Below are positions 15,283 through 61,993 of a DNA stretch of 64,000 bases, one piece after another. Within the stretch, counting starts at the first letter, position 1; the number at the start of each line of letters is the position of its first letter. Origin of the DNA: Hysterangium stoloniferum (taxonomy: Eukaryota; Basidiomycota; Agaricomycetes; Hysterangiales; Hysterangiaceae); assembly GCA_015178975.1 (NCBI GenBank), contig WHVD01000027.1:310001-374000 (forward strand), written 5' to 3'. Both the position numbers and the translations under genes were made by a program. Under the pieces are notes generated by a model. The model was given only the letters and a program-made list of their open reading frames with translations, had not been told where the DNA came from and made no database searches.

Positions 15283-18200
15283 CTAAAACGGCGTGGAACT
15301 AGGAGGAATAAATGGCTTAAGCTCCCAGTCAGCCGTGTGAGTGAATATCGTATTGCCAATCCAGTTTAATGATACGCCACCTGCGGGAAACTTATTTTAG
15401 ATAAGTAACCGTGGTTTAGTGCACGAGGGTATTGTTGACTCACTTGCAGGAAGAAAAACACCGCGCAAATGGACAAACCGGTTCCTAACGACAATGAATA
15501 TTATTGAGGTGTGAAAAGGAAAAGTTGAAACCACAAGAATACCTGAGTCCAAAGCAGCCGATAATATCTGCAGCGGTAATGGTTAGATGCGAGGGAGTGT
15601 GGATATAACGAGGTCCTCACATAATTAAACTTAGACCACCACGCAAAGTTTCGTGTACGTATCAAATATTGGAACACAAACCCTACAGCAAACCAGGAAG
15701 AATAATTGATCCCAGTCGCTGGTCACGTCAAAAAATGGACATTAGGGAGTAGCGCAAAGTACAAAACCAACCTGGAGGAATACGAGAGGGTCCATTTAGA
15801 AATACAGGCATGTTGATACATGGCAGCTTGCTATCAGGAAATCTTTGACGATACAACCAAAAAGGTAAAGGAATAATGGCTCCAAAAATAAGTGCATATA
15901 GCTCGGGCCCATAGATCGCATGCCGACCAAACTGACGAGCAGGACCTATCAGGCCCCTATTACGATGTGTCAGTCGGAAAAGCGGGAAAAGCCGGCTCTT
16001 CATACGCACCAGACGGCACTAGCAGTAAACATCACCTGCGTCAGGATAAAACAACATTAGTAAGAGGTACCAGACATTTCTACGAATATTCCGCACCTCA
16101 TTGCGTGGGCATGTGAGGAGATCTTTCTGATTCACCGAGCAGAGATCGTGGACATTGGCAAATAACCATGTTTTCACGCCTACTTGTGTGAAACATGCCA
16201 GAATTGTGGCAACTAGCTGCACTGGGGCAATCGTGTAAGATCAAGTACATACTGGGCATTTCATTGAACAATGTACCTAGAAAGCTGGCTCGAGGTGGGG
16301 TTTTGAGATAATGCCCAAGTTTGAGATCTTGTACAAAGCATAATGCTCCTGCGAGAGATTGTACAGAATATGCTTTGAAGATCTATCATTCTCGAGATAA
16401 GCGGTCGATTGGGACCGAAGCGAGAGAAGTAATAGTTACCATACTAGAGGTAGAAAACGTGATTAATACATTATTAATGCAAAATGGATGCACCCATAGT
16501 AACTATGAGGTCTTACTTTGCTAGCGGATTTCCCGGGAGCAGCGCTCCTAAAGCAACATTGTAGACTCAGCGGCTGCTAAACAGTAAGCACTTGAAAACC
16601 CACCCGGTATTACCTCTGCAATTAGATTTAATGTCACCTACGGAAAAAGAAAGTGTCAGCACTCTAAAATCAATTTATATGCTTATTTTTACCGTTTGTC
16701 CAGTAAATGCATAGATAAAGCCCGATGGCAAAATATAAATTACAGGCAACATGACCGCCAAGCAGAGTGACCAAATAGGCATTCCTGTCGGCCAGATCTG
16801 AAAGATCCACTTAGAAATGGCTTGATTCGAACAGCAAGCGCGATTACCTTGATGGATAAAACGGCTACAGAAAAGAAAAATGCCACACATGTAGCGTACC
16901 ACCAGTTGGGAACTACGATGCAGGAAAAATAACCATAAATGTGATCTTTTCAATCATAAACTCACCTTCAGGATAATGTCTCATCAACTTCGCATGCACA
17001 TCATCCTCCTCCACGCTCACATTCCTGATATTATTTATAACCGAACGGCCATGGTGTAAAATGGTATGGGTCAGTACACACGTCGAGAGCGCGATGGCAA
17101 GAAGATAGCCGATCACATATGTCGCAGGGAGATAAAGTGGAGAATAATCGGCGTAGGCAGTCGCATTGAAGGTGGGTTGCGCCCCGGACATGATGCGAGA
17201 GACATTATAATGGGAACCCGTGTTATCATAGGGTATGGAGGAGACCATAGGTAAATGAGAGAGGTTCCAAACCTATCAAGGTATACGGTTAAGACTGGAG
17301 CATAATAAAGGTTTAGTGACGGACATTGGAATAATACAGTATAGGGGCGATAATCTGTTGGTTCTCATTAATCAACTCGTATAGAGTACGAGTTAGTGGC
17401 CAAAGTTACCCAATAAAAAAGAATAAATCCGAGTATGACATGTACCTGTGCCCACCACGGCACCATGAGTGGACTCTCGATAAAACTTATTTGACTCCAG
17501 TCAAATGTCAAAATACCAAGCCCTAGCCCTGAGCGCACGCCAAATAACTGATTGACCACGACATTATTCGGCGCCATCCAGCATATATAGCTGAATATCG
17601 ACAATGCCTGGAAAAGGAAACCAGGTAGAAAGTAGAAAGCAAACGCCGCTGCCGATGCCAACATAAAGAACTTATAGCGGGAGATACTGCATGGTGCAGA
17701 AATTATGGTCTCATCTTCGGCATGGAGAGTGTTAAGAAGCGTGCAAGCAACGAGGTTTTGTGGCCATATCATACTTCCAGGCCAGACGAGGAAACGACGC
17801 ACAAACCCAGCGATACCGAATCCGGTGAGCTGGGTTGCCAGTATTAATGTAAGGTCAAACCTGCAAGAATAGAAATAGTATAAGGAGGTACTTCTACATA
17901 CGGAAATGTGAATACAAACCCAACTCCAAGTTTGACTTTATAGAACACCTCCGTGACCACGACTGCGTTAATGGCATAGGCAGGCTTAACCGATACATTG
18001 GCCATCAAGAATACACAAACATGCTGACATGACGTTAATATAAGGCTCATCGGGTATCTCGCCTGCAGACACACACACCTCTTTGATATTCCAGGGACCA
18101 GGATTAAAACTAAATTCATACGAACCAAGCCAATGTGGCAAATGATATTTTTTGATGGGTAAAATATATGCTCCAAATTTGCCGAGTGGATGTGAAAGGA

Positions 18201-18399
18201 GAAGAAGGACCAGCGGCGCAATTGTCGGGGCTGGAAAACGAAAGTTGAAGAAAGTATTGAGAGCGGTCGATATGCTACATAATGATAAGCCGATAATCCA
18301 CATTCGGAACGTTAATACAGGCATGGAAGGGTCATCGATGTTTGATACGCTGGCGCGTACTTCTGGGTATGGGGCTGAAAGAGACTGGTTATTGCTCAT
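15283..18399 (-). CDS. Oligopeptide transporter, OPT family
   Basis: Proton-coupled plasma-membrane oligopeptide transporter with about 14-16 membrane helices. Recognisable blocks in order are LSLCSISTALNTFFNFR, GPWNIKE (the family's NPGPFN-like motif), YMSLI-type loops, VVSSIPYDNTGSHYNVSRIM, WPTGMPIWSLCLAVMLP, VIPGALLPGNPLANMIFKAY, LGHYLKTPPRASF, ASAVWGLIGPARQFG and WWSKFNYILSAALDSGTGL. The protein ends IPPSSTPF. The apparently broken stretch 16,380-16,520 is resolved by a 4-nt microexon (16,440-16,443). With it, every frame from start to stop joins and no lesion was seen. At least a dozen introns. Specific substrate cannot be told from the sequence. Confidence 0.9.
16440..16443 (-). other. 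4-nt microexon inside the OPT gene
   Basis: The four bases TATG (minus strand) lie between a 73-nt intron (16,444-16,516; GTAAGA donor, CTCTAG acceptor) and a 57-nt intron (16,383-16,439; GTAACT donor, GATAG acceptor). The upstream exon ends GCA AA and the downstream exon starts ATC TTC AAA. Only insertion of TATG restores the frame and gives PLANMIFKAY, matching the OPT family PxANMxFK block. Confidence 0.7.
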
Positions 18400-38394: not shown

Positions 38395-39385
38395 ATGTTC
38401 GTCCTTGCCATCGGTGCTTCCAGACACATAGGCTATCTCACTTCCCGCAGACTGTTAGGTGGGTGTTATAACCAATTCCACCGGAAGGAACGACCTAATT
38501 CGCATACTTCATGTATCAGCCGAAGGACACACTGTTACATTTCTCTTAAGAAACCCCTCTGTCTTCGACGAGGATCCCACCATCCAGAAGTTCGTAAACG
38601 ACGGACACGCAAAGTTGATTAAAGGCGACGCAACCGTCAAATCAGATATCCAGAAGGCCTTCGACGAAGCTCGTAGCAATGGTCAACTAGATGCTGTCAT
38701 ATTCAGTGTTGGTACGTCCCACTCGCTCTTATCGTCCGTCCGTTATTAACATCGCCGCTCAGGCGGAACTCCCTCATTTTCCGCATTTTCCATAACAAAA
38801 GGCTTCGTTCTCACTCCCCCAAATCTTTGTAGTTTCTCTTTGTACAACGTCCTCGCCTGCTTTCCGGAGGATATCCCAACTGTGCCTCAGCCTAAGTTGA
38901 TTGTCATTTCATCCAACGGCCTCACGAAAACCAGCCACAATGCCTTACCTCTCGTCTTGAAACCTATTTTCTCATATGCCCTCCACTCTCCTCATGCTGA
39001 TAAACTCGTTATGGAACGTAAGTCTCACTGAAACGCATATATGCTTTCGTCAAACAACTAACAACCGAAAACAGGTGCGCTGTTCCACGCAGCGAATTGG
39101 ACATGGTCCGAAAAGGACCCAAATGACCTCACTGATTTCCTAGGATCAGACTGGCAGGAAAATTTGGGAGGGCCAGGATATCTCAAGGAAGTTGTCGTCG
39201 TTCGACCCACCTTGCTCACAGATGGCGACGCGAAGCCAGCAAAGGGAGTTTATAAAACATCGATAGAAGAGTTTCGTCATAATGCTTACTCCATTCCTCG
39301 AAAAGAGGTCGCACATTTTATCGTCGAGGGACTCTTGAAGAATTGGGCGGAATGGCGGGGAAATGTGGTTAGAATCACTGGGTAA
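38395..39385 (+). CDS. NAD(P)-binding oxidoreductase (atypical SDR / NmrA-like)
   Basis: Rossmann-fold protein. It starts MFVLAIGASRHIGYLTSRRL (the G-x-x-x-x-I-G form of the dinucleotide loop), spliced to AEGHTVTFLLRNPSVFDED, then LIKGDATVKSDIQKAFDEA and LDAVIFSVGGTPSFSAFS. Later come PKLIVISSNGLTKTS, ERALFHAANWTWSEKD, EVVVVRPTLLTDGD and IPRKEVAHFIVEGLL, ending at RITG. Four short introns, all in frame. Typical of fungal proteins annotated as NAD-dependent epimerase or NmrA-like; the substrate is unknown. Its last exon from 39,122 is the left edge of the tandem array, and copies of that exon recur at 42,982 and 48,068. Confidence 0.85.
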
Positions 39386-39448
39386 AGGACAGATCACTGG
39401 GTAAGGACAGATCACTGGGTAAAGGACAGATCATTGGGTAAAAGACAA
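39374..39448 (+). repeat. 19-bp minisatellite, 4 copies (unit 1)
   Basis: Four tandem copies of ATCACTGGGTAAAGGACAG with small changes, one being 18 bp. The first copy is the oxidoreductase C-terminus itself: ATC ACT GGG TAA codes I-T-G-stop. Confidence 0.9.
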
Positions 39449-39823
39449 CTTCGTTGGCTATTAATCACACTGATAGGTTTCTCTTCATTTTCTATCACCG
39501 CGTCTGATATATACCATATATTATAATATCTAAATAATCCTGAATGTAGGGTGTTGTAGCTATATCAGGATCCGCTAAAAACACTAATAGCGACGATACC
39601 CACGTTGTCCGCGTCGTGGTCCATTATAATCTGTAAGTATAAGAAGGAGCAATGAGTGGCTGTAAGCCAAGTCGAGCATACAACTAACTACTGGTATCGC
39701 GAACTGGACTGACACCAACGTCTCCAAGGTTAGTATAACGTCCGTGCATGGTTCAACAATTCACCAATCCACATTTTCGAGAAATTTTGCTTCATGCTAC
39801 GCTTTTCCGTTGACTGATGGGGG
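39449..39823. other. Unit 1 non-coding DNA
   Basis: AT-rich sequence shared by the three units. The short open frames are not conserved as proteins between units. The junction of the 1.1-kb deletion is near 39,740. Confidence 0.5.
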
Positions 39824-40275
39824 TGTTAGAAGGCGTAGAGGGAGAAGGGAGTTGATATATAAGAATATATATAAAATAAAAATCCAACGTGCCTTGTGTA
39901 TGTCACACTGTCGGCGTGTCACCTGTGCGGGACCCAAGCAGGCCGGCCAGCGCATCCTACCTACGCGTGAGGAAAAATGCAGCCCGGCACCGTATAACTC
40001 GTCCAAGTCCCGCCAGAGTATTATATCGTCGGCTTTCGCGGAGGGCCAGGTCCCCGGCGCCGTGTAATGGCTGGCGATCGGAGAAATTATACGGGTACCG
40101 ACAGCGCGGGCCCGGGACCCCACCTGGTCTACATAATAGTATATCGAATAGAGGAGATTAAACACATATGACCACCCTTATTGCTCTTCTTGAGATATTC
40201 TGTCTCGCCATTTTTTATACAAACGCTTACTTCTACGATACTCGTTATACCTAATATAATCCGTCCCAAGAGCCT

Positions 40276-40440
40276 TTATCCGTCATTCACGTGGGAAGGG
40301 GTTCGATTCTTAAGGTGTGCCATCATTTTTAGCGCAATAGACCATAGAAATTTAGGAAGTTTTGATGCGTATAACATAAATCGCACCCCTTCAGTTATCG
40401 TGCCTATTCCTCTCTCCGCGATTCCGTTTTGCTGCGGCAG
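40276..40440 (-). pseudogene. Copia-type integrase fragment (unit 1)
   Basis: Reads LPQQNGIAERGIGTITEGVR, SMLYASKLPKFLWSIAL and HLKNRTPSHVNDG, then a stop. This is the end of a Ty1/copia integrase core; the HG-x-x-PQQNG-x-AE-R box carries the catalytic Glu. Nothing of the rest of the integrase is adjacent. Confidence 0.8.
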
Positions 40441-40673
40441 CCCTCACCCGCCGTGCACCCTATAACCTTGACCCAATAATATGTCCCTCCCTCCACTACA
40501 CCGTCCCTGAGGCTCCAACCCCACAGTCCTGTACTGGACGGATAATCCTGTCAGGCACAGAAACGGAACGTTTCCTGGCAAGGAAGTAGCGGCGAAGGCT
40601 CGGTAGCAGGATTTAGCATCAAAGAACGGCCATTTACAACTGCAAAATCGCATATGGTTAAATACCCCTCAGT

Positions 40674-42867
40674 TTATAATAATGGAGTGATTATCCACAA
40701 ACGCACCGTAAGTATGATCTCTAACCAGTACGCGTCACCACGATGATCATACATCTTGCAATTCTCATGCCACCCCTTTGGAAAGCGCCATTTCTTTGTA
40801 GGCTGCACGGGGTCATTCGGTGCTCTCGGAGAGATGAGAAGGTAGCGGACCTCCACGAGCGGCTCCGAGACTGTCTGCTTGTCATCGGCCTTCGTGGTCT
40901 TCCATTTTCTTTTTTTCGTGGGGAGGGTCTCCTGAAGTTGCTTCTTCAAAGCAGCAACGATCTTTCGGATCACTTGATAACCCACCGCCGAGCCTCCGTG
41001 TGATCGGGACACAGTCATCTGCAGAACCCATAGAATGGCTGACTTCCTTGAAGAATAGAAATCGACTGTAAAAGCATCAAACAACGGGAAATTTGGTGTA
41101 GCAGGCTGGTAATACTCGTGTTGCTGAAAAAGTGTAGGCAAGTCAGTAGTCGATTGGAATATGACAACCTTGCGTGTGACTTGGGCAAACTTCACATTGT
41201 CGGGGATGGGGGATGAAACGTCCGAAGTGAACTCTGGGGGGTCAGCACCGTTGGAAGTCATTGTGATAAGAGGCCAGAAGTCGCCCCTAGAGTTTGTCGT
41301 GAGCTGACGATGAGCGAGCGGCTCAAAGTACCACCCTGCCAGTGCCGCTGTTTGCGGTATCTGTCGAAACAGGTTGATTTTTTGGCGAATGATGGTATCC
41401 TCTACAACATTCAGCTTCTTTAGCATGCTCCTGCCAACCCAGTCCGACTTGAAATTCAACGCCCAACGATCCCCCGATAGATGCTCGTCAGGGATAGGGC
41501 GGATAACGATGATCCGATGAGAAAGTTGTGGATTAAAACCGCTATCACGACGGGAAAGGGTGGCTATGATCTGTTGCAAATCTTGGTGACTTATCTGGAG
41601 AGCTCCCTCATGCTCCAGGGTAATCGCCCTGAAATCAAACATCGCATGGAAGACATCACGCGCAGCATATCCAAAACGTTCGATCGCCGCATCTAGAAGA
41701 GTATCGAGAGCATCCTCAGAGGATGGTGAGATGGGGTCTTCTACTGTCATCGGATAACGTTCTTGGAGAATTGCACCGGCGCCAGGGAACCCACGTAGCG
41801 CAATAATGAGATCCATCCGAGGCTGAGAGGAGCCTTTGTCAGGATAAACCTGACGCAATTTGTCCAGTAAATTAACATAATCGTCTTGATATTGAAGTCT
41901 GAGACAATGTACGCTCAGACATGAACAAAAGCGTCGTAATGGCAAGTGTAAACCTACGCTAATGAGAGCTCCTCACGGGTCCATAACGGCAAGCCAGCGA
42001 TCAGAGCCGTTGTCAGTTTCGTCCAGGTCTTATATCGAATGGGATCCGGGGAAGCTGTCTGGATAGGGAAGCAGTAGCGAGAGAGTAACGGCCGTTGTGG
42101 CTCCCGTCTGGCGGAAATGTCAAACAAGGACCAAATAAAAACCCCAGACGATGACTTGGCCATGGGGGGAACTGTGCGTCTTCCAGCATCTGCCACATAG
42201 ACAGCATCGTGGAAGAAGAGGAACAGCTCGTCGCCATCCAAAGAGAAGAGCACGATTTGCTTTTGCTGCAGAAGGCGGACAAGAAGATAGAACAGGAAAA
42301 GGGTTTTGCCTAAAAATATGATTACTATCTTGCGCAACATTAGAGGTGTAAAGTACGTGCCAGTGCCAGGCTGACCGGTGATAAGAACTCCTGCATTTTT
42401 AGGGCCGGTTGGTATCAATGCGCGCATCCAGACGCGGTGAAACATCTCAGTATAAGACTCGCGGACCAAAATCACCATGGGAAAATCTCTAGGATACGAC
42501 GATGACTCAGTGAGAGGTGCAAGAGACAGCTTTGGAGAGCTGGGATCGGCGAGCGAATCGCACTCGGAAGCTCCACGCCATTTGGTGAAGAAGCTTTGCC
42601 ACTCCGGCCTAGCCAATGTCCATAACTTTTTGTCATCCTCATGCCACTCCCAATTATCAACATCTACAAGAATGGGGATTAGGTGGTGATAACGATAGAT
42701 GATGATTGGAGAATCGGGCCTCACCAGTATTTGCATTCGCCAGGTTGTTGTACTCACCAAGGTCTGGTATAGCGAAGGCGCGACAGGTGGTGGGCAGGAA
42801 CATAAGAGAGGGGAAGTTTGTCTGCATATCGAGATAATTTCAAGGTGACAAAAGGAGGTTTTTGCAT
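40674..42867 (-). CDS. Crinkler/RHS-like P-loop NTPase, copy 1
   Basis: Predicted NTPase of the expanded basidiomycete class resembling the ATPase module of RHS and Crinkler proteins. Start at 42,867: MQKPPFVTLKLSRYADKLPL; an intron then leads to DVDNWEWHEDDKKLWTLARP. Walker A is GQPGTG plus GKTLFLFYLLVRLLQQKQ, split by 51 nt that lack a stop. FIWSLFDI follows, then SPDPIRYKTWTK and LPLWTREELSLA, the family's W-x-x-EEL end of the NTPase core. A second intron (GTAGGT to TCTCAG) joins LALQYQDDYVNLLDKLRQVY and a long C-terminal region (RFGYAARDVFHAMF, SRSHGGSAVGYQVIRKIVAA) to a stop at 40,674. Function in any cell is unknown. Roles in genome conflict or effector delivery are known only for relatives. 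Confidence 0.7.
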
Positions 42868-42981
42868 ACCGGGAATTGAAACTCTGCTCAAGGTCTTTGC
42901 ATTACGTAAAGCACGCGCTAATTATATCCCGCAGGTGAGGAAGGACAGGGCAGAGTTATAGGTCGATTGCACTGTGTATCT

Positions 42982-43245
42982 AATGACCTCACTGATTTCC
43001 TAGGATCAGACTGGCAGGAAATTTTGGAAGGGCCAGGATATCTCAAGGAAGTTGTCGTCGTTCGACCCACCTTGCTCACAGATGGCGACGCGAAGCCAGC
43101 AAAGGGAGTTTATAAAACATCGATAGAAGAGTTTCGTCATAATGCTTACTCCATTCCTCGGAAGGAGGTCGAACATTTTATCGTCGAGGGACTCTTGAAG
43201 AATTGGGCGGAATGGCGGGGAAATGTGGTTAGGATCACTGGGTAA
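42982..43245 (+). pseudogene. Oxidoreductase last-exon copy (unit 2)
   Basis: Reads NDLTDFLGSDWQE, GPGYLKEVVVVRPTLLTDGD and NAYSIPRKEVEHFIVEGLL to RITG and stop. Upstream exons are absent, so it is only a fragment, although the frame is still open. Confidence 0.9.
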
Positions 43246-43347
43246 AGGACAGATCACTGGGTAAAGGCCAGATCACTGGGTAAAGGACAGATCACTGGGT
43301 AAAGGACAGATCACTGGGTAAAGGACAGATCATTGGGTAAAGGACAA
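43234..43347 (+). repeat. 19-bp minisatellite, 6 copies (unit 2)
   Basis: Six tandem copies of the ATCACTGGGTAAAGGACAG unit, the last with ATCATTGGG. Confidence 0.9.
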
Positions 43348-44839
43348 CTTCGTTGGCTATTAATCACACTGATAGGTTTCTCTTCATTTTCTATCACCGC
43401 GTCTGATATATACCATATATTATAATATCTAAATAATCCTGAACGTAGGGTGTTGTAGCTATATCAGGATTCACTAAAAACACTAATAGCGACGATACCC
43501 ACGTTGTCCGCGTCGTGGTCCATTATAATCTGTAAGTATAAGAAGGAGCAATGAGTAGCTGTTGATAATAGAAGCCAACTCGAGCATACAACTACTGGGA
43601 TCGCAAACTGGACTGACACCAACGTCTCCAAGGTTAGTATACGTCCCAACACCAAGGTGCCTTGTGTAGCATTTCCGCCATAAGTGCTTTCCATTCCCAT
43701 CGAATGTATGTGTTCAAATCACCTAATTTTTGACAATCTTCAGATTATCCCGACTGTAGTCAAGCCAGCAACATATCTATCTGAAGAGATCACAAGATTT
43801 GGCATTGTGAGCGCTACACTCCAGATTTGCAAATGTTACTTTCCGACTTGTATTCAGTGACGACAAGTGATATAAACATGGTTGATAGTAACGGCGATGT
43901 GTATGTGTCTGTTGTCGGTCTACAGAGAACTAGGTCAATGCTGTGATCAATGTGGATGAAGTTTGGTATGTCTATTTACTACCCATCCTCGTTTACCATT
44001 AAAAGAGTGTTTATAGCACAACCAAAGGAACAGCAGGTGCTGCTGATTCGTGACTTGAGTACTTCTTGCAATAGATGGTCATGTTCAGAATTGAACCTGG
44101 CCCATTAATCACACCTGTGTGAGTATCTTTCATAGCCGCTCTATCTGGGTTGATTGAATGACTACTCTGGTCAGACCGTACTCAGTAAAGATGGAGTGGA
44201 GGCCGGCACATGCATATAAACAGCCTGTAACTGGCCACACGAATGCTGTCGTGTGACCCATTACCTAATGGCAAAGAGGGCCATTGAAACACTATATCCA
44301 CGATGCTGCTGGCCTGGGAAAGATGAATGGAAGCAGCAGTTCTTGAGTAATCCAGATATTATCAGAATAGAGCCACATTGGTTATTGTGTCGAATCATCT
44401 CTATCACTCTCAAAGTATTTGGCCTAAGCACAAAGGGGCGTGTGAAAGTATCCAGCTGCGTGTGTACGCTATCAATTCCTTATTCAAAGATTTAAGCTAA
44501 TTCATGCTTAGTAGTGGTTGGCCTGGATGTGCGTGTCAGAACCAAAAGCGAACAGGAAGACATACATAGGATGTTGGAAGGAAATCGACCGTTACATAGG
44601 CGAGTGACAGAGGTTGATGCTGCCATTGTTGTACGCAGCCGCACTGAAATACAGTCCCTGTCAGCTGTTAATTCTGCTCCTCTTTCGAAGCCCTCACTCC
44701 CACTTCTAGGCCCACATTTTAAAATCACTTGCCAAGTCATGAGGGAGTTTTCCAAGACGTGCATGGTTCAACAATTCACCAATCCACATTTTCGAGAAAG
44801 TTATGCTTCATGCTACGCTTTTCCGTTGACTGATGGGGG
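43348..44839. other. Unit 2 non-coding DNA
   Basis: 1.5 kb without a supported gene. Open frames at 44,492-44,870 on both strands are identical in unit 3, but they lack family motifs and are probably remnants of retroelement coding DNA, since they run directly into the LTR-like start. Confidence 0.4.
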
Positions 44840-45185
44840 TGTTAGAAGGCGTAGAGGGAGAAGGAGTTGATATATAAGAATATATATAAAATAAAAATCC
44901 AACGTACCTTTTGTATGTCACACTGTCGGCGTGTCACCTGTGCGGGACCCAAGCAGGCCGGCCAGCGCATCCTACGTACGCGGTGAGGAAAAATGCAGCC
45001 CGGCACCGTATAACTCGTCCAAGTCCCGCCAGAGTATTATATCGTCGGCTTTCGCGGAGGGCCAGGTCCCCGGCGCCGTGTAATGGCTGGCGATCGGAGA
45101 AATTATACGGGTACCGACAGCGCGGATCCCCAGTGCCTCATCGGGGGACCCCACCTGTAATAGTATCGAATAGAGGAGATTAAAG
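44840..45185 (+). mobile_element. LTR-like sequence after a purine tract (unit 2; equivalents at 39,824 and 50,419)
   Basis: A polypurine-like TGATGGGGG is followed by TGTTAGAAGGCGTAGAGG, the layout of a polypurine tract and 3' LTR start. The next 350 nt contain a GC-rich core and a possible TATATAAG box. The end is not defined: no matching CA end or target duplication was found, so this is a partial or decayed LTR. Confidence 0.45.
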
Positions 45186-45371
45186 TGGATCATATGGGTT
45201 GCAGGGCCAGATCCTATTATGTGCCTGTTGAGGATTATCAGAAAAAAAGCGTAGTGTAAGCGGAATATGACCACCCTTATTGCGTCTTCTTGATTCTGTC
45301 TCGCCATTTTTTATACAAACGCTTACTTCTACGATACTCGTTATACCTAATATAATCCGTCCCAAGAGCCT

Positions 45372-45536
45372 TTATCCGTCATTCACGTGGGAAGGGGTTC
45401 GATTCTTAAGGTGTGCCATCATTTTTAGCGCAATAGACCATAGAAATTTAGGAAGTTTTGATGCGTATAACATAAATCGCACCCCTTCAGTTATCGTGCC
45501 TATTCCTCTCTCCGCGATTCCGTTTTGCTGCGGCAG
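45372..45536 (-). pseudogene. Copia-type integrase fragment (unit 2)
   Basis: Same fragment as in unit 1, from LPQQNGIAERGIG to HVNDG and stop. Confidence 0.8.
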
Positions 45537-45769
45537 CCCTCACCCGCCGTGCACCCTATAACCTTGACCTAATAATATGTCCCTCCCTCCACTACACCGT
45601 CCCTGAGGCTCCAACCCCACAGTCCTGTACTGGACGGATAATCCTGTCAGGCACAGAAACGGAACGTTTCCTGGCAAGGAAGTAGCGGCGAAGGCTCGGT
45701 AGCAGGATTTAGCATCAAAGAACGGCCATTTACAACTGCAAAATCGCATATGGTTAAATACCCCTCAGT

Positions 45770-47963
45770 TTATAATAATGGAGTGATTATCCACAAACGC
45801 ACCGTAAGTATGATCTCTAACCAGTACGCGTCACCACGATGATCATACATCTTGCAATTCTCATGCCACCCCTTTGGAAAGCGCCATTTCTTCGTAGGCT
45901 GCACGGGGTCATTCGGTGCTCTCGGAGAGATGAGAAGGTAGCGGACCTCCACGAGCGGCTCCGAGACTGTCTGCTTGTCATCGGCCTTCGTGGTTTTCCA
46001 TTTTCTTTTTTTGGTGGGGAGGGTCTCCTGAAGTTGCTTCTTCAAAGCAGCAACAATCTTTCGGATCACTTGATAACCCACCGCCGAGCCTCCGTGTGAC
46101 CGGGACACAATCATCTGCAGAACCCATAGAATGGCTGAGTTCCTTGACGAATAGAAATCGACTGTAAAAGCATCAAACAATGGGAAATTTGGTGTAGCAG
46201 GCTGGTAATACTCGTGTTGCTGAAAAAGTGTAGGCAAGTCAGTAGTCGATTGGAATATGACAACCTTGCGTGTGACTTGGGCAAACTTCACATTGTCAGG
46301 GATGGGGGATGAAACGTCCGAAGTGAACTCTGGGGGGTCAGCACCGTTGGAAGTCATTGTGATAAGAGGCCAGAAGTCGCCCCTAGAGTTTTCCGTGAGC
46401 TGACGATGAGCGAGCGGCTCAAAGTACCACCCTGCCAGTGCCGCTGTTTGCGGTATCTGTCGAAACAGGTTGATTTTTTGGCGAATGATGGTATCCTCTA
46501 CAACATCCAACTTCTTTAGCACGCTCCTGCCAACCCAGTCCGACTTGAAATTCAATGCCCAACGATCCCCCGACATAGGCCTGTCAGGGATAGGGTGGAT
46601 AACGATGATCCGATGAGAAAGTTGTGGATTAAAACCGCTATCACGACGGGCAAGGGTGGCTATGATCTGTTGCAAATCTTGGTGACTTATCTGGAGAGCT
46701 TCCTCATGCTCCAGGGTAATCGTGCTGAAATCAAACATCGCATGGAAGACATCACGCGCAGCATATCCAAAACGTTCGATCGCCGCATCTAAAAGAGTAT
46801 CGAGAGCATCCTCAGGGGATGGTGAAATGGTGTCTTCTACTGTCATCGGATAACGTTCTTGGAGAATTGCATCGGCGCCAGGAAACCTATCTAGCGCAAT
46901 AACGGGATCCATCCGAGGCTGAAAGGAGTCTTTGTCGGGATAAACCTGACGCAATGTGTCCAGAAAATCAACATAACCGTCTTGATATTGAAGCCTGAGA
47001 TAATGTACGCTCAGACATGAACAAAAGCGTCGTAATGGCAAGTGTAAACCTACGCTAATGAGAGCTCCTCACGGGTCCACAACGGCAAACCGGCGATCAG
47101 AGGCTTTGACTCCTTCGTCCAGATCTTATATCGAACGGGATCCGGGGAAGCTGTCTGGATAGGGAAGCAGTAGCGAGAGAGTAACGGCCGTTGTGGCTCC
47201 CGTCTGGCGGAAATGTCAAACAAGGACCAAATAAAAACCCGAGACGATGACTTGGCCACGGGGGGGACTGTGCGTGTTCCAGCATCTGCCACATAGACAG
47301 CATCGTGGAGGAAGAGGAACAGCTCTTCGCCATCCAAAGAGAACATTACGATTTGCTTTTGCTGCAGAAGGCGGACAAGAAGGTAGAACAGGAAAAGGGT
47401 TTTGCCTAAAAATATGATTACTATCTTGCGCAACATTAGAGGTGTAAAGTACGTGCCAGTGCCAGGCTGACCGGTGATAAGAACTCCTGCATTTTTAGGG
47501 CCGGTTGGTATCAATGCGCGCATCCAGACGCGGTGAAACATCTCAGTATAAGACTCGCGGACCAAAATCGCTATGGGAAATTGTCTAGGATACGACGATA
47601 ACTCAGTGAGAGGTGCAAGAGACAGCTTTGGAGAGCTGGGATCGGCGAGCGAATCGCACTCGGAAGCTCCACGCCATTTGGTGAAGAAGCTTTGCCACTC
47701 CGGTTCAGCCAACGTCCATAACCTTTTGTGATTTTCATACCACGCCCAATTGTTAACATCTACAAGAGTGGGGATTAGGTGGTGATGACGATAGATGATG
47801 ATTGGAGAATTGGGCCTCACCAGTATTTGCATTCGCCAGGTTGTTGTACTCACCAAGGTCTGGTATAGCGAAGGCGCGACAGGTGGTGGGCAGGAACCTA
47901 AGAGAGGGGAAGTTTGTCTGCATATCGAGATAATTTCAAGGTGACAAAAGGAGGTTTTTGCAT
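45770..47963 (-). CDS. Crinkler/RHS-like P-loop NTPase, copy 2
   Basis: Same structure as copy 1: start MQKPPFVTLKLSRYADKL at 47,963, the same introns, the same 51-nt interruption of Walker A, and the same stop after IITPLL. Scattered substitutions, for example DVNNWAWYENHKRLWTLAEP and EDTISPSPEDALDTLL, change many residues without stops. With no nonsense in either long exon the gene may still be functional. It is followed downstream by the integrase scrap of its unit. Confidence 0.7.
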
Positions 47964-48067
47964 ACCGGGAATTGAAAGGTCTTTGCATTACGTAAAGCAC
48001 GCGCTAATTATATCCCGCAGGTGAGGAAGGACAGGGTAGAGTTATAGGTCGATTGCACTGTGTATCT

Positions 48068-48331
48068 AATGACCTCACTGATTTCCTAGGATCAGACTGG
48101 CAGGAGAATTTGGGAGGGCCAGGATATCTCAAGGAGGTTGTCGTCGTTCGACCCACCTTGCTCACAGATGGCGACGTGAAGCCAGCAAAGAGAGTTTATA
48201 AAACATCGATAGAAGAGTTTCGTCATAATGCTTACTCCATTCCTCGGAAGGAGGTCGCACATTTTATCGTCGAGGGACTCTTGAAGAATTGGGCGGAATG
48301 GCGGGGAAATGTGGTTAGGATCACTGGGTAA
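48068..48331 (+). pseudogene. Oxidoreductase last-exon copy (unit 3)
   Basis: Open copy of the last exon with changes such as GDVKPAKRVYKTS, ending RITG and stop. No upstream exons. Confidence 0.9.
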
Positions 48332-48451
48332 AGGACAGATCACTGGGTAAGGACAGATCACTGGGTAAAGGACAGATCACTGGGTAAAGGACAGATCACT
48401 GGGTAAAGGACAGATCACTGGGTAAAGGACAGATCATTGGGCAAAGGACAA
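48320..48451 (+). repeat. 19-bp minisatellite, 7 copies (unit 3)
   Basis: Seven tandem copies, the second 18 bp and the last ATCATTGGGCAAAGG. Confidence 0.9.
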
Positions 48452-50418
48452 CTTCGTTGGCTATAATCACACTGATAGGTTTCTCTTCATTTTCTATCAC
48501 CGCGTCTGATATATACCATATATTATAATATCTAAATAATCCTGAACGTAGGGTGTTGTAGCTATATCAGGATCCGCTAAAAACACTAATAGCGACGATA
48601 CCCACGTTGTCCGCGTCGTGGTCCATTATAATCTGTAAGTATAAGAAGGAGCAATGAGTGGCTGTTGATAATAGAAGCCAACTCGAGCATACAACTACTG
48701 GTATCGCAAACTGGACTGACACCAACGTCTCCAAGATTAGTATACGTCCCAACACCAAGGTGCCTTGTGTAGCATTTCCGCCACAAGTGCCTTCCATTCC
48801 CATTGTATGTATGTGTTCAAATTACCTAATTTTTGACAATCTTCAGATTATCCCGACTGTAGTCAAGCCAGCAACATATCTATCTGAAGAGATCACAAGA
48901 TTTGGCATTGTGAGCGCTACACTCCAGATTTGCAGATGTTACTTTCTGACTTGTATTCAGTGACGACAAGTGATATAAACATGGTTGATAGTAATGGCGA
49001 TGCGTATGTGTCTGTTGTCGGTCTACAGAGAACTAGGTCAATGCTGTGATCAATGTGGATGAAGTTTGGTATGTCTATTTACTACCCATCCTCGTTTACC
49101 ATTAAAAGAGTGTTTATAGCACAACCAAAGGAACAGCAGGTGCTGCTGATTCGTGACTCAAGTACTTCTTGCAATAGATGGTCATGTTCAGAATTGAACC
49201 TGGCCCATTGATCACACCTGTTGTTAAAATGATAAATGAAAGGGGGATCGGGGCACAGAATAGTGACCCTAGTGGACGAATAGACCACCACTCGGACACA
49301 GACACAGACTGGTTACCAGAAGTAACTGAACTCAGACGACCGCATACTGGACAGAGTCACAGACATGGATAGGGACTATTATGGATACATGTGGGTACAT
49401 AATGTTCTGAACCACAAATTCCAACACCTGTGTGAGTATCTCTCATAGCCGCTTGATCTGGGTTGATTGAAGGTGACTACTCTGGTCAGACCGTACTCAG
49501 TAAAGATGGAGTGGAGGCCAGCACATGCATATAAACATTGTAACTGGCCACACAAATGCTGTCGTGTGACTTGTCACTCCCCATCATCCTCGGCACACAC
49601 AAGGGCCTTGAAGCCCTAGCCGAGTTCATTGCCGCCTCAGACACTTTCCGGAAGACCTAATCACCCCCACCCTGCATTAGACCCTCCCACGTATCCCAAC
49701 CCGCTGCATTCACATCCCACCTTTTCTCCACCAACCGTTAGGGTAGTTCTCTCCCCAACCGCTATGTATCTTCGTTATGCGATGCGGTATATAAATGTAT
49801 TAAATAAAAAAAAAAAAGTGCTGTCGTGTGACCCATTACCTAATGGCAAAGAGGGCCATTGAAACAGGAACTATATCCATGATGCTGCTGGCCTGGGAAA
49901 GATGAATGGAAGCAGCAGTTCTTGAGTAATCCAGATATTATCAGAATAGAGCCACATTGGTTACTGTGTCGAATCATCTCTATCACTCTCAAAGTATTTG
50001 GCCTAAGCACAAAGGGGCGTGTGAAAGTATCCAGCTGCGTGTGTACGCTATCAATTCCTTATTCAAAGATTTAAGCTAATTCATGCTTAGTAGTGGTTGG
50101 CCTGGATGTGCGTGTCAGAACCAAAAGCGAACAGGAAGACATACATAGGATGTTGGAAGGAAATCGACCGTTACATAGGCGAGTGACAGAGGTTGATGCT
50201 GCCATTGTTGTACGCAGCCGCACTGAAATACAGTCCCTGTCAGCTGTTAATTCTGCTCCTCTTTCGAAGCCCTCACTCCCACTTCTAGGCCCACATTTTA
50301 AAATCACTTGCCAAGTCATGAGGGAGTTTTCCAAGACGTGCATGGTTCAACAATTCACCAATCCACATTTTCGAGAAAGTTATGCTTCATGCTACGCTTT
50401 TCCGTTGACTGATGGGGG
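48452..50418. other. Unit 3 non-coding DNA
   Basis: Counterpart of the unit 2 stretch, interrupted by the 210-nt and LINE segments. No supported gene. Confidence 0.4.
49571..49818 (+). mobile_element. 5'-truncated LINE insertion with poly-A tail
   Basis: About 248 nt flanked by a perfect 14-bp duplication, TGCTGTCGTGTGAC (49,557-49,570 and 49,819-49,832), ending in a 12-A run. Its 5' part reads LGTHKGLEALAEFIAASDTF, resembling the C-terminus of fungal LINE ORF2 proteins (KxGLxALAEF...FxKT). The rest is a C-rich 3' UTR. Unit 2 at about 44,240-44,265 shows the empty site. Confidence 0.85.
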
Positions 50419-50791
50419 TGTTAGAAGGCGTAGAGGGAGAAGGAGTTGATATATAAGAATATATATAAAATAAAAATCCAACGTACCTTTTGTATGTCAC
50501 ACTGTCGGCGTGTCACCTGTGCGGGACCCAAGCAGGCCGGCCAGCGCATCCTACGTACGCGGTGAGGAAAAATGCAGCCCGGCACCGTATAACTCGTCCA
50601 AGTATTATATCGTTGGCTTTCGCGGAGGGCCAGGTCCCCGGCGCCGTGTAATGGCTGGCGATCGGAGAAATTATACGGGTACCGACAGCGCGGATCCCCA
50701 GCGCCTCATCGGGGGACCCCACCTGTAATAGTATCGAATAGGAGATTAAACACATGACCACTCTTATTGCGTCTTCTTGAGACATTCTGTC

Positions 50792-51055
50792 TCACCATTT
50801 TTTATACAAACGCTTACTTCTATGATACTCGTTATACCTAATATAAGAGAGCCTTTGTCCGTCATTCACGTGGGAAGGGGTTTGATTCTTAAGGTGTGCC
50901 ATCATTTTTACCGCAATAGACCATAGAAATTTAGGAAGTTTTGATGCGTATAACATAGATCGCACCCCTTCAGTTATCGTGCCTATTCCTCTCTCCGCGA
51001 TTCCGTTTTGCTGTGGCAGCCCTAGGGCACCCGCCGTGATCGAAACATACAGCAC
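50792..51055 (-). pseudogene. Copia-type integrase fragment (unit 3)
   Basis: Longest of the three copies: GLPQQNGIAERGIGTITEGV, KLPKFLWSIAVKMMAHLKNQ and onwards to RLYKKW in one frame, because the unit 1 and 2 stop after HVNDG is removed by a small deletion. Confidence 0.8.
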
Positions 51056-51154
51056 GCCTTCTTCCCTTCCTTACACCCTATAACCTTGACCCCCCACCAC
51101 TACACCGTCCCTGAGGCTCCAACCCCACAGTCCTGTACTGGACGGATAATCCTG

Positions 51155-53477
51155 TCAGGCACAGAAACGGAACGTTTCCTGGCAAGGAAGTAGCGGCGAA
51201 GGCTCGGTAGCAGGATTTGGCATCAAAGAACGGTCATTTACAACTGCAAAATCGCATATGGTTAAATACCCCTCAGTTTGTAATAATGATGGAGTGATTA
51301 TCCACAAACGCACCGTAAGTATGATCTCTAACCAGTACGCGTCACCACGATGATCATACGTCTTGCAATTCTCATGCCACCCCTTTGGAAAGCGCCATTT
51401 CTTCGTAGGCTGCACGGGGTCATTCGGTGCTCTTGAAGAGATGAGAAGGTAGCGGACCTCCACGAGCGGCTCCGAGACTGTCTGCTTGTCATCGGCCTTC
51501 GTGGTCTTCCATTTTCTTTTTTTCGTGGGGAGGGTCTCCTGAAGTTGCTTCTTCAAAGCAGCAACAATCTTTCGGATCACTTGATAACCCACCGCCGAGC
51601 CTCCGTGTGACCGGGACACAGTCATCTGCAGAACCCATAGAATGGCTGAGTTCCTAGAAGAATAGAAATCGACTGTAAAAGCATCAAACAACGGGAAATT
51701 TGGTGTAGCAGGCTGGTAATACTCGTGTTGCTGAAAAAGTGTAGGCAAGTCAGTAGTCGATTGGAATATGACAACCTTGCGTGTGACTTGGGCAAACTTC
51801 ACATTGTCAGGGATGGGGGATGAAACGTCCGAAGTGAACTCTGGGGGGTCAGCACCGTTGGAAGTCATTGTGATAAGAGGCCAGAAGTTGCCCATAGAGT
51901 TTTCCGTGAGCTGACGATGAGCGAGCGGCTCAAAGTACCACCCTGCCAGTGCCGCTGTTTGCGGTATCTGTCGAAACAGGTTGACTTTTTGGCGAATGAT
52001 GGTATCCTCTACAACATCCAACTTCTTTAGCACGCTCCTGCCAACCCAGTCCGCTTTGAAATTCAATGCCCAACGATCCCCCGACATAGGCCTGTCAGGG
52101 ATAGGGTGGATAACGATGATCCGATGAGAAAGTTGTGGATCAAAAACGCTATCACGACGGGCAAGGGTGGCTATGATCTGTTGCAAATCTTGGTGACTTA
52201 TCTGGAGAGCTGCCTCATGCTCCAGGGTAATCGCCCTGAAATCAAACATCGCATGGAAGACATCACGCGCAGCATATCCAAAACGTTCGATCGCCGCATC
52301 TAAAAGAGTATCGAGAGCATCCTCAGGGGATGGTGAAATGGTGTCTTCTACTGTCATCGGATAACGTTCTTGGAGAATTGCATCGGCGCCAGGGAACCTA
52401 TCTAGCGCAATAACGGGATCCATCCGAGGCTGAAAGGAGTCTTTGTCGGGATAAACCTGACGCAATGTGTCCAGGAAATTAACATAACCGTCTTGATATT
52501 GAAGCCTGAGACAATGTACGCTCAGACATGAACAAAAGCGTCGTAATGGCAAGTGTAAACCTACGCTAATGAGAGCTCCTCACGGGTCCACAACGGCAAA
52601 CCGGCGATCAGAGGCTTTGTCTCCTTCGTCCAGATCTTAAATCGAACGGGATCCGGGGAAGCCGTCTGTACAGGGAAGCAGTGGTAAGAGAGCAACGGGA
52701 ATGGTGGCTCCTGTCTGGCTGAAATGTCAAACAAGGACCAGATAAAAACATCGGGAGACGATGACTTGGGGGTGGGGGGGGTTGGGCTCATTCCAGCCAT
52801 TGCCGAATAGACAGTATCATGGAAAAATAGGAACAACTGGCTGCCATCCAGAGAGAAGAGCACATTTTGCTTCTGCTGCAGAAGGCGGACAAGAAGATAG
52901 AACAGGAAAAGAGTTTTGCCTAAAAACACGATTACTATCTTGGGCAACATTAGAGGTGTAGAGTACGTGCCAGTGCCAGGCTGACCGATGATAAGAACTC
53001 CTGTATCTTTAAGGCCGGGTGGTGTCAATGCGCACACCCAGACGCGGTGAAACATCTCAGTATAAGACTCGCGGACCAAAATCACCATGGGAAATTCTCT
53101 AGGATACGACGATGACTCAGTGAGAGGTGCAAGAGACAGCTTTGGAGAGCTGGGATCGGCGAGCGAATCGCACTCGGAAGCTCCACGCCATTTGGTGAAG
53201 AAGCTTTGCCACGCCGGCCTAGCCAATATCCATAACGTTTTGTCATCCTCATGCCACGCCCAATTGTCAACATCTACAAGAGTGGGGATTAGGTGGTGAT
53301 AACGATAGATGATGGTTGGAGAATCGGGCCTCACCAGTATTTGCATTCGCCAGGTTGTTGTACTCACCAAGGTCTGGTATGGCGAAGGCGCGACAGGTGG
53401 TGGGCAGAAACATAAGAGAGGGGAAGTTTGTCTGCATATCAAGATAATTTCAAGGTGACAAAAGGAGGTTTTTGCAG
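51155..53477 (-). CDS. Crinkler/RHS-like P-loop NTPase, copy 3 (start codon lost)
   Basis: Same gene as copies 1 and 2, but the start ATG is CTG (53,475-53,477). The open frame could still be entered downstream. The stop used by the other copies is converted to a sense codon, so the frame runs on through PSLLQTEGYLTICDF to end at 51,155. A patch between LLVRLLQQKQ and TASPDP (about 52,640-52,870) differs heavily: SQLFLFFHDTVYSAMAGMSP against DELFLFFHDAVYVADAGRRT, with GLKDTGVLIIGQPG just before it. The Walker A insertion is conserved. Probably decaying or altered in expression. Confidence 0.65.
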
Positions 53478-53590
53478 ACCGGTAATTGAAACTCTGCTCA
53501 AGGTCTTTGCATTACGTAAAGCACGCGCTAATTATATCCCGCAGGTGAGGAAGGACAGGGCAGAGTTATAGGTCGATTGCACTGTGTATC

Positions 53591-54792
53591 TTCTATTTGC
53601 AACCTAATTAGCTTGCCGCATAGCCCCCTGAGCTCTGACCTAATTAGAATGCATAAGCTATTTTTGTCAAGTCTTCGCATAAAACGTAATTGAAATATGA
53701 ATCCGATGACGAGTATATGCGCATATATTGTAGTGCCGTTAAGGGGGAGTAACTCCTAATTACGAATTTCTCCTTAATGATGCAATTGACTAGAAACTTC
53801 GAGCATCAAAATTTCCCCTTTTTTATTCTCCTAATAACTCTCCTAAAAATAATTAGAAAGTAAATAAAAAGTCGCGATATTTCGCCATATACCTCAGTGA
53901 AGTTTACTCACTCACTCACTGAGCTTCGAATTTAGACTCAATCCTTCTGAATTCTTGTCTTCTACTCAACAATTTTGCCGCACCCTGCTGGATGGTCCTG
54001 CACTTCCCAGTTAGATGACCCTTCGCTTGCAATGCTCTACGTGTAAACCCAAATCTCTAATTGTCACATACACAACTGTACATAGCTGACATAATGTGTC
54101 TCCATACTTTGCTCTTGTCCCCATCTGCTGCCATTTCATTCCTGGGCTTTATTTTCCTATCATTTCATGGGCAAGAAGCGCAAATTGGGGCTTTCTTCAA
54201 AGTTCTCTGTATCTAGTGTTGGTGCAAATAGACATCTTGTAACTTCTAGGATTACTACTGCACACATGTCAGAATGCTGCCAATTTTATTCAAGAACATC
54301 AGGAAAGGTTGAAATGTGAGTAAATTACACTTTTATTACATATAATAACATAATGACTTTATGGTACCAATCTCAAATTGTTTAGAGAATTTTCAGGGAT
54401 TTTGAATGTGGAAGATTTGTGCTGGTGTTGTTACAACTGGAATTCCTACTGGATTCTGGGCACTAACTTATACACACCCACACCCTATATACACCAATTA
54501 TCAGTTTACTGGAATACCCGCCAGACTCCATATGTCAGACCTGTTATGTATTTTTAAAGGTTTTTTCTATTTTTCGCAATTTCCCCAAAACGAAATTCTT
54601 AACAAAGGCTGTTAAATGTATTTATATCGTGATTATAAAATTTTACAATATTCTCTTGATTTATATTGAATTTATGCAATTTATTTGGTATTTTCATCTT
54701 ATAAATTGAGGGAGCTACGAAATTTCTACCTTTTATTCTTTTTTAACTAATATATCTTCAAACCGGCCATCTAGCGCGACACACAGGAACAT
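53591..54792. other. AT-rich non-coding DNA right of the array
   Basis: 1.2 kb of AT-rich sequence with no recognisable gene. Contains a fourfold CTCA run (about 53,908-53,923). Start of the transposon-rich region. Confidence 0.4.
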
Positions 54793-56851: not shown

Positions 56852-58360
56852 CAGTGACCCAAAAAAGCATCATCTGACCTACATGATGACATAAGCATGA
56901 CATCATAGCTTTCCTTATCAGGAAAGTAGGAAATTAATAATGGACATAGTGCATCCGGACACTTTTTTTGCTCTTGTAATTAATTACTAGTTTTTACCAG
57001 TTTCAGTATTTAGTGTACCCCCCCTTGGCCTTTAGTACTGCAACAACCCTTCTAGGCATGCTCTTGATCAATTCAAGGCATTTCTCCCTTGGAATACCCT
57101 CCCATTCCACCTCCACTCTCTCCCAGAGCTCCAATATGCTCTTGGGTGCCTCAGGGTATGTTCCAAGCCTTCTCTTCAACTCCCACCATAAGTGTTCTAT
57201 TGGATTCAGGTCTGGAGACTGTGCAGGCCAGTCTAAAACCTTCACCTGATGGTCCTTGAACTAATCCTTGGCCAACTTGCAAGTGTGTTTAGGGTCATTG
57301 TCTTGCTGGAAGACAAACCTTTCCCTGTCCATCCCATAATACTCCACTATTTTGAAGATATAGTCCTCCAATATGTCCTTGTATATCTCCCCATCCATCC
57401 TCCCATCTATCTTGCACATGTACCCCACACCATGTGCTGTCATACATCCCCAAATCATTAGACTCCCCCCTCCAAATTTGATAGTTCCATTGATATGCTG
57501 CTGAGTGAGTGCAGAACCTGGTCTTTTCCATACCCACAACCTCCCATCAGAGCCCAAATGATTGATTTTGGTCTCATCTGAGAAGATAACCCTAAACCAG
57601 TCCTCCTCAGTCCAATGCTGGTACTTGATAGCAAACTCATATTGAGCCTTGATGTGTCGACAGGCAAGAAGAGGTCTTTTGGCCTTCACCACAGCCTTCA
57701 AATTCTCTTTCTTCAATGCATTTCTAATTGTCTGTGTGCAGACATTGAGGGAGAGGTGGGACTTGGCTTGGGAGGCATTATCAACCTGTCCAGAGGTGAT
57801 AGAACGAGCCAGGTGGTGATGATCCCTGGAGGAGAGTTTGGGAGGACAATCTCTGGAAGGTGTTGGAAGTGGACCAGGGAGTTGGGAGCAAATTTCTGAT
57901 ACTGTAGAGTGCCCAATATGAAGTTTAGAAGCAATTGTTCTGCAGGAGTGACCCTCCTGGAGAAGAGAAATGACAGAGAGCCTTGTTTCAGTAGAGTGCT
58001 TCTTCATCATGTGGTGGGGGGGTGAATTGAGGCAAAGGTTCATGTAAATGTGTTATTTAAACATGTGGTCACATGACATTGTTGAACCTAACCAGAAATT
58101 CCCACAGTTATATGAACCTTAGTTGAGTTTCATGTATCAGTTGACAGAGCAAAAAAAATGTCTAGATGCACCATGTCCATTGTTCATTTCCTACTTCCCT
58201 GATAAGGAAAGCTATGACATCATGCTTATGTCATCATGTAGGTCAGATGTATACCTCTTACCTCTGATTTATTCAGAATTTTGTCTATTTTATTTCTGGA
58301 GCTGTAAACCCATCTTTCCAATTTCACCAAACATCCAGATGCTTTTTTGGGTCAATACAC
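56852..58360 (-). mobile_element. Tc1-like DNA transposon A with 101-bp inverted repeats
   Basis: Left end CAGTGACCCAAAAAAGCATC follows a TA dinucleotide. The right end carries the inverse GATGCTTTTTTGGGTCA. An inner inverted pair of exactly equal length, 56,873-56,973 and 58,147-58,247 (101 bp each, few mismatches), brackets the transposase. The right arm has about 90 extra bases between the terminus and the inner repeat that the left arm lacks. The right terminal bases (GTCAATACAC) have diverged, so the exact end is uncertain. Confidence 0.75.
57003..58043 (-). pseudogene. Tc1/mariner transposase A (one internal TAG)
   Basis: Nearly intact transposase. The N-terminal HTH pair reads TRLSVISLLQEGHSCRTIAS and HSTVSEICSQLP. 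The DDE domain has the first Asp in VIFSDETKINHLG, the second in FVFQQDNDPKHT, and the third acidic position in WPAQSPDLNPIEHLWWELKR. It ends VVAVLKAKGGYTKY. The only lesion seen is a TAG at 57,261-57,263 (minus strand), where relatives have tryptophan (TGG), just before FKDHQVKVLDWPAQ. This element may still be mobilised in trans. Confidence 0.85.
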
Positions 58361-61700: not shown

Positions 61701-61993
61701 CACCTCAAATATGTTTGATAGTGTTCACCAAACATCAAGTGCAGTAATTAATCCTCCTGTATATACCAAGTAATTATCACTTATGCGTAAGCAAATTGCC
61801 ACATAAGCCTGTTGATCTTTCCATTTCCAATCCATAATTGCCTGCCATTCTTCTTCCGTTATATTCTTAGGGTCTGCCGGCATCGGCTCTCCAGTTGATC
61901 TGTCCACATACACCTATAGACCTTGTTCTATTAAGATCCACTTGAGTTTCTGTTTCCACACGAGATAATTGTATCCATTTAAGGGGTCAATCC
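58739..61993 (-). mobile_element. Ty1/copia retrotransposon remnant, minus strand
   Basis: From right to left it carries gag with NGYNYLVWKQKLKW, then an in-frame TAG where W is expected, then VYVDRSTGEP, then HIRKLRTLQQELHSHREYIS (UBN2-type gag). A zinc-knuckle region and protease follow (WLTDSAPMTHIARNWQDFIN; DSA replaces DSG). Gag-pre-integrase is HRILDHISIGVVKLLKKNKL. The integrase is missing. Reverse transcriptase includes LMDVKGAYLNSILEEEIYMK, LYGLKQAGHTWH and AAYVDDLGLFA. RNase H includes IEIEIYVDSDYANRD and STTKAEYIALIEGAKE, ending KGLDLNQHNYLKKKLGF. Several frame breaks; not functional. Its gag end is cut by transposon C. Confidence 0.9.
60083..60651. mobile_element. LTR insertion in place of the copia integrase
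   Basis: Begins TGTTAAGTGCC and ends GGGTCGTAACA. It shares GGCTTCAGCTTATGTGCTGC and CTTA.ATTTCGGA with the LTR at 62,371, so both belong to one family. The copia coding sequence jumps from gag-pre-integrase to RPGMDYYETTS across it, with the integrase lost. No target duplication is visible; the exact right end is uncertain. Confidence 0.6.

Follow-up and report, generated by a model that had tools for sequence, protein, structure and literature searches.

A predicted 4-nt exon in an oligopeptide transporter gene of Hysterangium stoloniferum

Results

The OPT gene and its surroundings

The window, that is the whole 64,000-nt stretch of Hysterangium stoloniferum DNA analysed here, carries a gene of the OPT family on its minus strand (Table 1). 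All 17 introns of the gene model are GT-AG and the last is 53 nt long; leaving aside introns 9 and 10, which flank the exon that is the subject of this report, the other 15 measure 50–61 nt (median 55). The predicted 721-residue protein matches Pfam OPT PF03169 at 595.6 bits (cut-off 25.8; profile positions 2–622 of 623), TIGR00727 (NCBIfam ISP4_OPT) at 677.8 bits (cut-off 438.7; positions 4–677 of 681) and TIGR00728 at 548.5 bits (cut-off 128.35). With both profile ends covered, 18399–15283 is predicted to encode a full-length OPT-family small oligopeptide transporter of the ISP4 type, with peptide transport as its predicted function. A query with this protein identified no relative among prokaryote genomes, viruses, plasmids and PDB chains, a set that is silent on fungi at large. 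At the DNA level, the sole match in the genome to the stretch 16250–16640 is that stretch itself.

Elsewhere in the window, 39122–53591 is occupied by large repeated units, two of which (40166–44118 and 45265–49221) are 96% identical, with a third near 50337–53591 at about 93%. On the minus strand of each unit are two open frames, one of about 315 and one of 432–474 residues; a Pfam scan of the two frames of the first unit gave no match. A Tc1/mariner-like transposase frame is located at 57264–58052 (HTH_Tnp_Tc3_2, 38.2 bits). Open frames at 59023–61724 resemble, by their motifs, parts of a Copia-type retroelement; a Pfam scan of the frame at 59026–59601 gave no match at 0.001.

Table 1. Coordinates of the predicted OPT gene, of the parts surrounding its putative 4-nt exon, and of the small exons in locus L009
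Feature	Location	Strand	Remarks
OPT-family (ISP4-type) oligopeptide transporter gene	15283..18399	minus	predicted 18-exon CDS; ATG start codon at 18399; 721 aa
Exon 8, 34 nt	16604..16637	minus	from the gene model; ends ...EVIPG
Intron 8, 56 nt	16548..16603	minus	missing from paralogue L011
Exon 9, 31 nt	16517..16547	minus	codes ALLPGNPLA and AA of the Asn codon
Intron 9, 73 nt	16444..16516	minus	GTAAGA...CTCTAG; phase 2 in Asn483
Exon 10 (putative microexon), 4 nt, TATG	16440..16443	minus	final base of Asn483 and whole Met484
Intron 10, 57 nt	16383..16439	minus	GTAACT...GATAG; phase 0 after Met484
Exon 11, 106 nt	16277..16382	minus	IFKAYSVQSLAG...; L011 counterpart also 106 nt
Candidate 4-nt exon, TGAC, of a further OPT gene (same genome)	L009:3350-3353		reads ...LYWPMTWFF...
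11-nt exon	L009:3270-3280 (C35)		neighbour of the 4-nt exon

The putative 4-nt exon and its flanking introns

The initial annotation placed two canonical introns of 73 and 57 nt around the bases TATG, and both the coordinates and the sequence on the minus strand are as it claimed. Canonical AG and GT dinucleotides bound the four bases, and the flanking introns are of normal length. Exon 9 ends ...CCGCTAGCAAA at 16517 and exon 11 begins ATCTTCAAAGCATAT... at 16382; with the microexon between them (CCG CTA GCA AA/T ATG/ATC TTC AAA GCA TAT, exon junctions marked by slashes) the product reads PLANMIFKAY. As the same annotation proposed, this segment falls inside an OPT family block, here within a full-length OPT protein, and the microexon reading has the best TIGR00727 score among the readings scored. 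The microexon contributes the final T of the Asn483 codon and the complete Met484 codon, ATG, to the 721 residues, and the resulting protein aligns to the family with no net gap in the block; TATG is required for both the motif and the length of the protein. No stop codon or frameshift interrupts the reading frame across the other 17 exons of this 721-residue protein. The predicted spliced transcript contains ...GCAAATATGATCTTC..., and a transcript containing the microexon, with the sequence GCAAATATGATC, would be incompatible with a single-intron reading of the 134 nt. Skipping of the microexon would shift the frame and lead to a stop at 517 residues, with seven introns still downstream.

If introns 9 and 10 were fused, the resulting 134-nt intron would be more than twice as long as the longest of the other 15. 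Intron 9 itself exceeds the range of those 15 and lies within that of the paralogue models. The splice-site scores of both introns are within the range of the other 15, and the sites bounding the microexon are only average: the donors rank at the 73rd and 78th percentiles among the 195 GTs of the gene, and the acceptors at the 66th and 48th among its 122 AGs. A second copy of intron 9 was not detected in the genome, by a search that skips very common words and is thus not absolute. As intron 9 matched only itself, with near-identical genomic copies absent, a mobile intron of the introner type is not indicated.

Comparison with paralogues

The genome (111 Mb, 554 contigs) gave at least 80 OPT matches, counted exon by exon. 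Twenty stretches were fetched as paralogue loci, leaving out the matches at C157:18134 and C475:351467; L019 contains more than one match and is represented by its best-scoring alignment alone. Loci were modelled with a purpose-written spliced aligner, trained for its splice-site weights on the introns of the window gene other than 9 and 10 (n=15); this aligner predicted the paralogue proteins from the window protein. Tiny exons in the low-identity alignments of L023–L028 were not trusted. Sixteen paralogue proteins served as queries, excluding the fragments L012, L019 and L021 and L027 (a near copy of L026), and the tree was built without L012, L019 and L021.

The closest paralogue, L011 (C13:1065500-1070500), is 63% identical to the window protein over 704 columns and is its sister in the tree with a support of 100/100. 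In this relative with fewer introns, a single 69-nt exon ends GCAAATATG; a phase-0 intron of 61 nt separates it from an exon of 106 nt. The corresponding 69 nt of the window gene are divided into 34+31+4, and a phase-0 intron of 57 nt again precedes an exon of 106 nt. LANM is coded by unbroken codons in L011. Seven of the 17 window introns are common to L011, including the one after Met484. Intron 8 (16603–16548) is also missing in L011, so that two introns of the window gene cut the 69-nt exon of its paralogue.

Among the 20 loci, the phase-0 intron after Met484 is found in L011, L024 and L028. The phase-2 intron at Asn483 is found in none of the 20, 18 of which are informative (L012 being a weak fragment and L021 ending inside the block). 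In L010, L013–L020 and L022, an intron interrupts the Ala codon, 4 nt upstream of the Asn483 position of the window gene. Thus, the microexon and its two-intron layout are not conserved across the paralogues; with the upstream intron in no paralogue locus and LANM unbroken in L011, the microexon appears, as far as seen, to be particular to the window gene.

All 16 paralogue queries recovered the exon 16443–16440 exactly. In each case, the microexon model scored higher, by 4.8–33.5 units, than the best model obtained with the microexon donor masked. Among the paralogues the first of the two residues varies and the second is nearly constant: across 18 alignment rows, Asn occupies position 483 in seven and Met occupies position 484 in 16, and the variants include AMM, AVM and TVM.

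Six of the fetched OPT loci (L014–L019) lie on one 561-kb contig, C475, between 69000 and 540500. These loci (without L019), together with L010, L013, L020 and L022 from other contigs, form one group in the tree. About 25 introns are common to most members of this group, including those bounding exons of 15 and 20 nt, which are common to eight paralogues (L013–L018, L020 and L022). Judging from these models, the group looks like a gene-family expansion that is partly local.

Alternative splice readings and chance controls

Splice models of the region 16637–16277 were enumerated with zero to three introns of 35–200 nt and GT...AG ends (GC also being accepted in single-intron models). Of 1,904 open models, the microexon model included, seven contain A-N-M, and all seven use the exon 16443–16440. 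A separate scan covered all 29,161 contiguous removals that are 31 nt or longer and lie within 16547–16277, whatever their boundaries. The frame was left open by 1,247 of these removals and a 721-residue protein was obtained from none; the nearest product has 720 residues and needs non-canonical ends. A nested twin intron (stwintron) was considered and rejected, since contiguous removal never yields the 721 residues.

The initial annotation held that the exons join in frame only with the microexon. This stands in a narrower form: with the intron 16603–16548 held fixed, the microexon model is the sole one in which every intron measures 45–100 nt. In its strict form the claim needs qualifying: 17 two-intron GT-AG models (introns of 35–200 nt, intron 8 fixed), the microexon model among them, are open, as are 10 contiguous removals with GT-AG, GC-AG or AT-AC ends, none of these 10 giving 721 residues.

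Eight alternative splice readings and the nearest non-canonical removal were scored against the family profiles, and the remaining models were left to the spliced aligner. The 169-residue block fragment, as read with the microexon, scores 167.2 bits with TIGR00727, aligning 165 residues to 165 profile positions, compared to 164.1 bits with N-M masked and 157.9 bits with N-M deleted. The gain of N-M over masked letters is only 3.1 bits for TIGR00727 and 6.6 bits for TIGR00728. All eight alternatives fall below the microexon reading (27.8–154.6 bits). The best of them, a GC-AG intron at 16521–16383, deletes A-N-M to give PLIFK and a protein of 718 residues (154.6 bits); the other seven score 144.6, 143.3, 141.2, 135.1, 126.1, 102.4 and 27.8 bits, the last from a frameshifted, shorter fragment. 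The non-canonical removal reaches 158.4 bits, also below 167.2. Alternative two- and three-intron models were rejected, as the aligner found nothing as good once the microexon donor was masked.

Rescue of the frame is by itself weak evidence for a microexon, because it is common in shuffled spacers. The 134-nt spacer was dinucleotide-shuffled 20,000 times; with both introns required to be at least 45 nt long, some in-frame exon arose in 31.5%, one of at most 15 nt in 22.9% and one of 4 nt in 6.3%. The letters YATG, which spell N-M here, stood between AG and GT in 13 of the 20,000 (0.065%). A spliced-alignment control, in which a 140-residue piece of the L011 protein was aligned to 1,500 shuffled spacers, points the same way: 733 gained an exon of at most 15 nt and 190 a 4-nt exon, so that finding some microexon is easy for this aligner, and only the score and the content of the exon are exceptional. 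The real score of 456.1 was reached by none of the 1,500 shuffles (maximum 453.9, mean 432.5, sd 8.6).

A second candidate 4-nt exon

Another OPT gene of the same genome, at L009 (C35:527500-532500), has consecutive exons of 30, 11, 4 and 70 nt in its model. The 4-nt exon, TGAC, was recovered by eight of nine queries, including the window protein, the exception being the distant L023. When the 198-nt spacer was shuffled, the real score of 396.5 was reached in none of 1,000 trials (maximum 391.9); 408 gained an exon of at most 15 nt and 13 a 4-nt exon. TGAC resembles TATG in gene family, genome, size and the test applied, but it sits elsewhere in the protein (LYWP-M-TWFF) and beside an 11-nt exon, which the window exon does not. 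Its different place in the protein and the adjoining 11-nt exon indicate a separate event. The comparison of the window gene with the 17 longer OPT models thus contains two separate candidate cases of a 4-nt exon.

Discussion

The gene at this locus almost certainly contains a 4-nt exon between two ordinary small introns, as judged from its sequence, and the best evidence comes from the paralogues of the same genome. We estimate a probability of about 94% that the OPT transporter gene is functional and that TATG at 16443–16440 is one of its internal exons, constitutively included.

One alternative is that the 134 nt, with different outer boundaries, form a single intron or a nested twin intron excised as one unit, and that the match of TATG is due to chance. 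Single-intron GC-AG models running from 16577, 16574 or 16571 to 16383 are indeed open, as is the one that keeps intron 8 and gives PLIFK. However, none of these models yields 721 residues, the four GC-AG readings score 141.2–154.6 bits against 167.2, and their introns of 134–195 nt are far outside the usual length in this gene. With the microexon donor masked, the top alignment score falls for each of the 16 paralogue queries, and a scan of two stwintron-type outer donors (G/GT and GT/GT) identified none with an open frame. We rejected a single intron on the strength of the exhaustive removal scan and consider this alternative very improbable. Slightly less probable still is a decaying pseudogene that has lost its frame in the block and in which the microexon is an illusion. 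The frame does break without the microexon, and the gene is known here from sequence alone; on the other hand, the other 17 exons are open throughout, the protein scores far above the family cut-offs, and AG-YATG-GT is found in only 0.065% of shuffled spacers.

The microexon could also be real and act as a regulated switch, skipping of which would give a truncated product and turn the transporter off. The early stop after skipping, with seven introns downstream, would suit such a switch, and a regulated microexon is known in Trichoderma Xlr2 (PMC11121469). The upstream intron is missing, however, from the nearest paralogue and from all 20 loci, so that no conserved regulation is visible. We consider a switch unlikely, if the least improbable of these alternatives. 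Under the preferred reading of a constitutive exon, inclusion must be near constitutive for a working gene because skipping shifts the frame, and transcripts lacking the exon would be expected to undergo decay.

The clean comparison with a paralogue suggests how such an exon may originate: an old phase-0 intron after Met484 would have stayed in place, while a second intron, gained 4 nt upstream, isolated TATG. The downstream intron is probably the older of the two, and the intron at Asn483 probably a later gain in the window gene that cut off the 4 nt. This relative age rests mainly on one close paralogue, L011. The Asn483 intron could instead have been lost by L011 and every other locus, a history that takes more steps.

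Introns 9 and 10 are likely recognised across the intron. Since both are short, exon length would matter little under intron definition, the relation of which to small exons is treated in PMC8624252. Their removal would be sequential, as sites only 4 nt apart could hardly accommodate two sets of splicing factors. Either order may be possible, because the last exon bases, ATG, which would pair with U1, are present both before and after the first splicing step. A wider reading, which we consider somewhat less likely than not, is that new introns have arisen in this fungus more than once within a few bases of older ones, leading to recurrent 4-nt exons in its intron-dense families, and that such exons pose no difficulty to a spliceosome that defines introns and removes them in sequence.

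Gene-finding programs tend to miss such tiny exons. The initial annotation expected automated annotation to call the gene broken. With the microexon donor masked, spliced alignment selects models that are open but wrong, for example with a GC-AG intron from 16521, so that silent mis-annotation would be as likely as an obvious break. Annotation without a microexon search may therefore give an open wrong model, and more cases should come to light when intron-dense fungal genes are checked family by family. The merits of the TATG case are its clean paralogue comparison and the second instance in L009.

The initial annotation regarded microexons of this size as rare in fungi. This now appears too strong in view of the 1-nt Fusarium exon (PMC12940212) and the second 4-nt OPT candidate in the same genome. 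As exons of 1 to 8 nt have already been reported in fungi, a 4-nt exon is a further case of a known phenomenon. Among the literature matches listed, in which subscription journals are mostly uncovered, none concerns a microexon in a fungal OPT gene. Xlr2 of Trichoderma virens (PMC11121469) has a switch-like microexon that is alternatively spliced in response to glucose; it shares with the window gene a fungal microexon, whereas conserved regulation is not visible for the latter. P450 genes of Phanerochaete chrysosporium contain microexons, the shortest reported being 6 bp (PMC1184071), and an 8-nt exon in Phanerochaete CYP5141A1 is recounted in PMC12940212. The P. chrysosporium P450 genes resemble the window gene in being intron-dense, with introns of about 50 bp and tiny exons, some of them in conserved motifs; they belong to another gene family, and their shortest exon is 6 bp compared to 4 nt.

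The closest parallel lies in the CYP621A P450 genes of Fusarium, in which a one-nucleotide exon in 20 orthologues was confirmed by reads (Nelson and Syed, PMC12940212). Both are fungal genes with short introns and a tiny exon in a conserved protein motif, and in both the exon was deduced from a fused intron that would exceed double the normal length and from comparison with a relative, one without introns for CYP621A and one with fewer introns here. They differ in that the CYP621A exon is 1 nt and known from reads across orthologues, whereas the window exon is 4 nt, is not common to the paralogues and comes from genomic sequence only. They may also differ in origin: the CYP621A authors propose repair of the frame by a cryptic exon, whereas the window gene is better explained by the gain of a further intron next to an older one.
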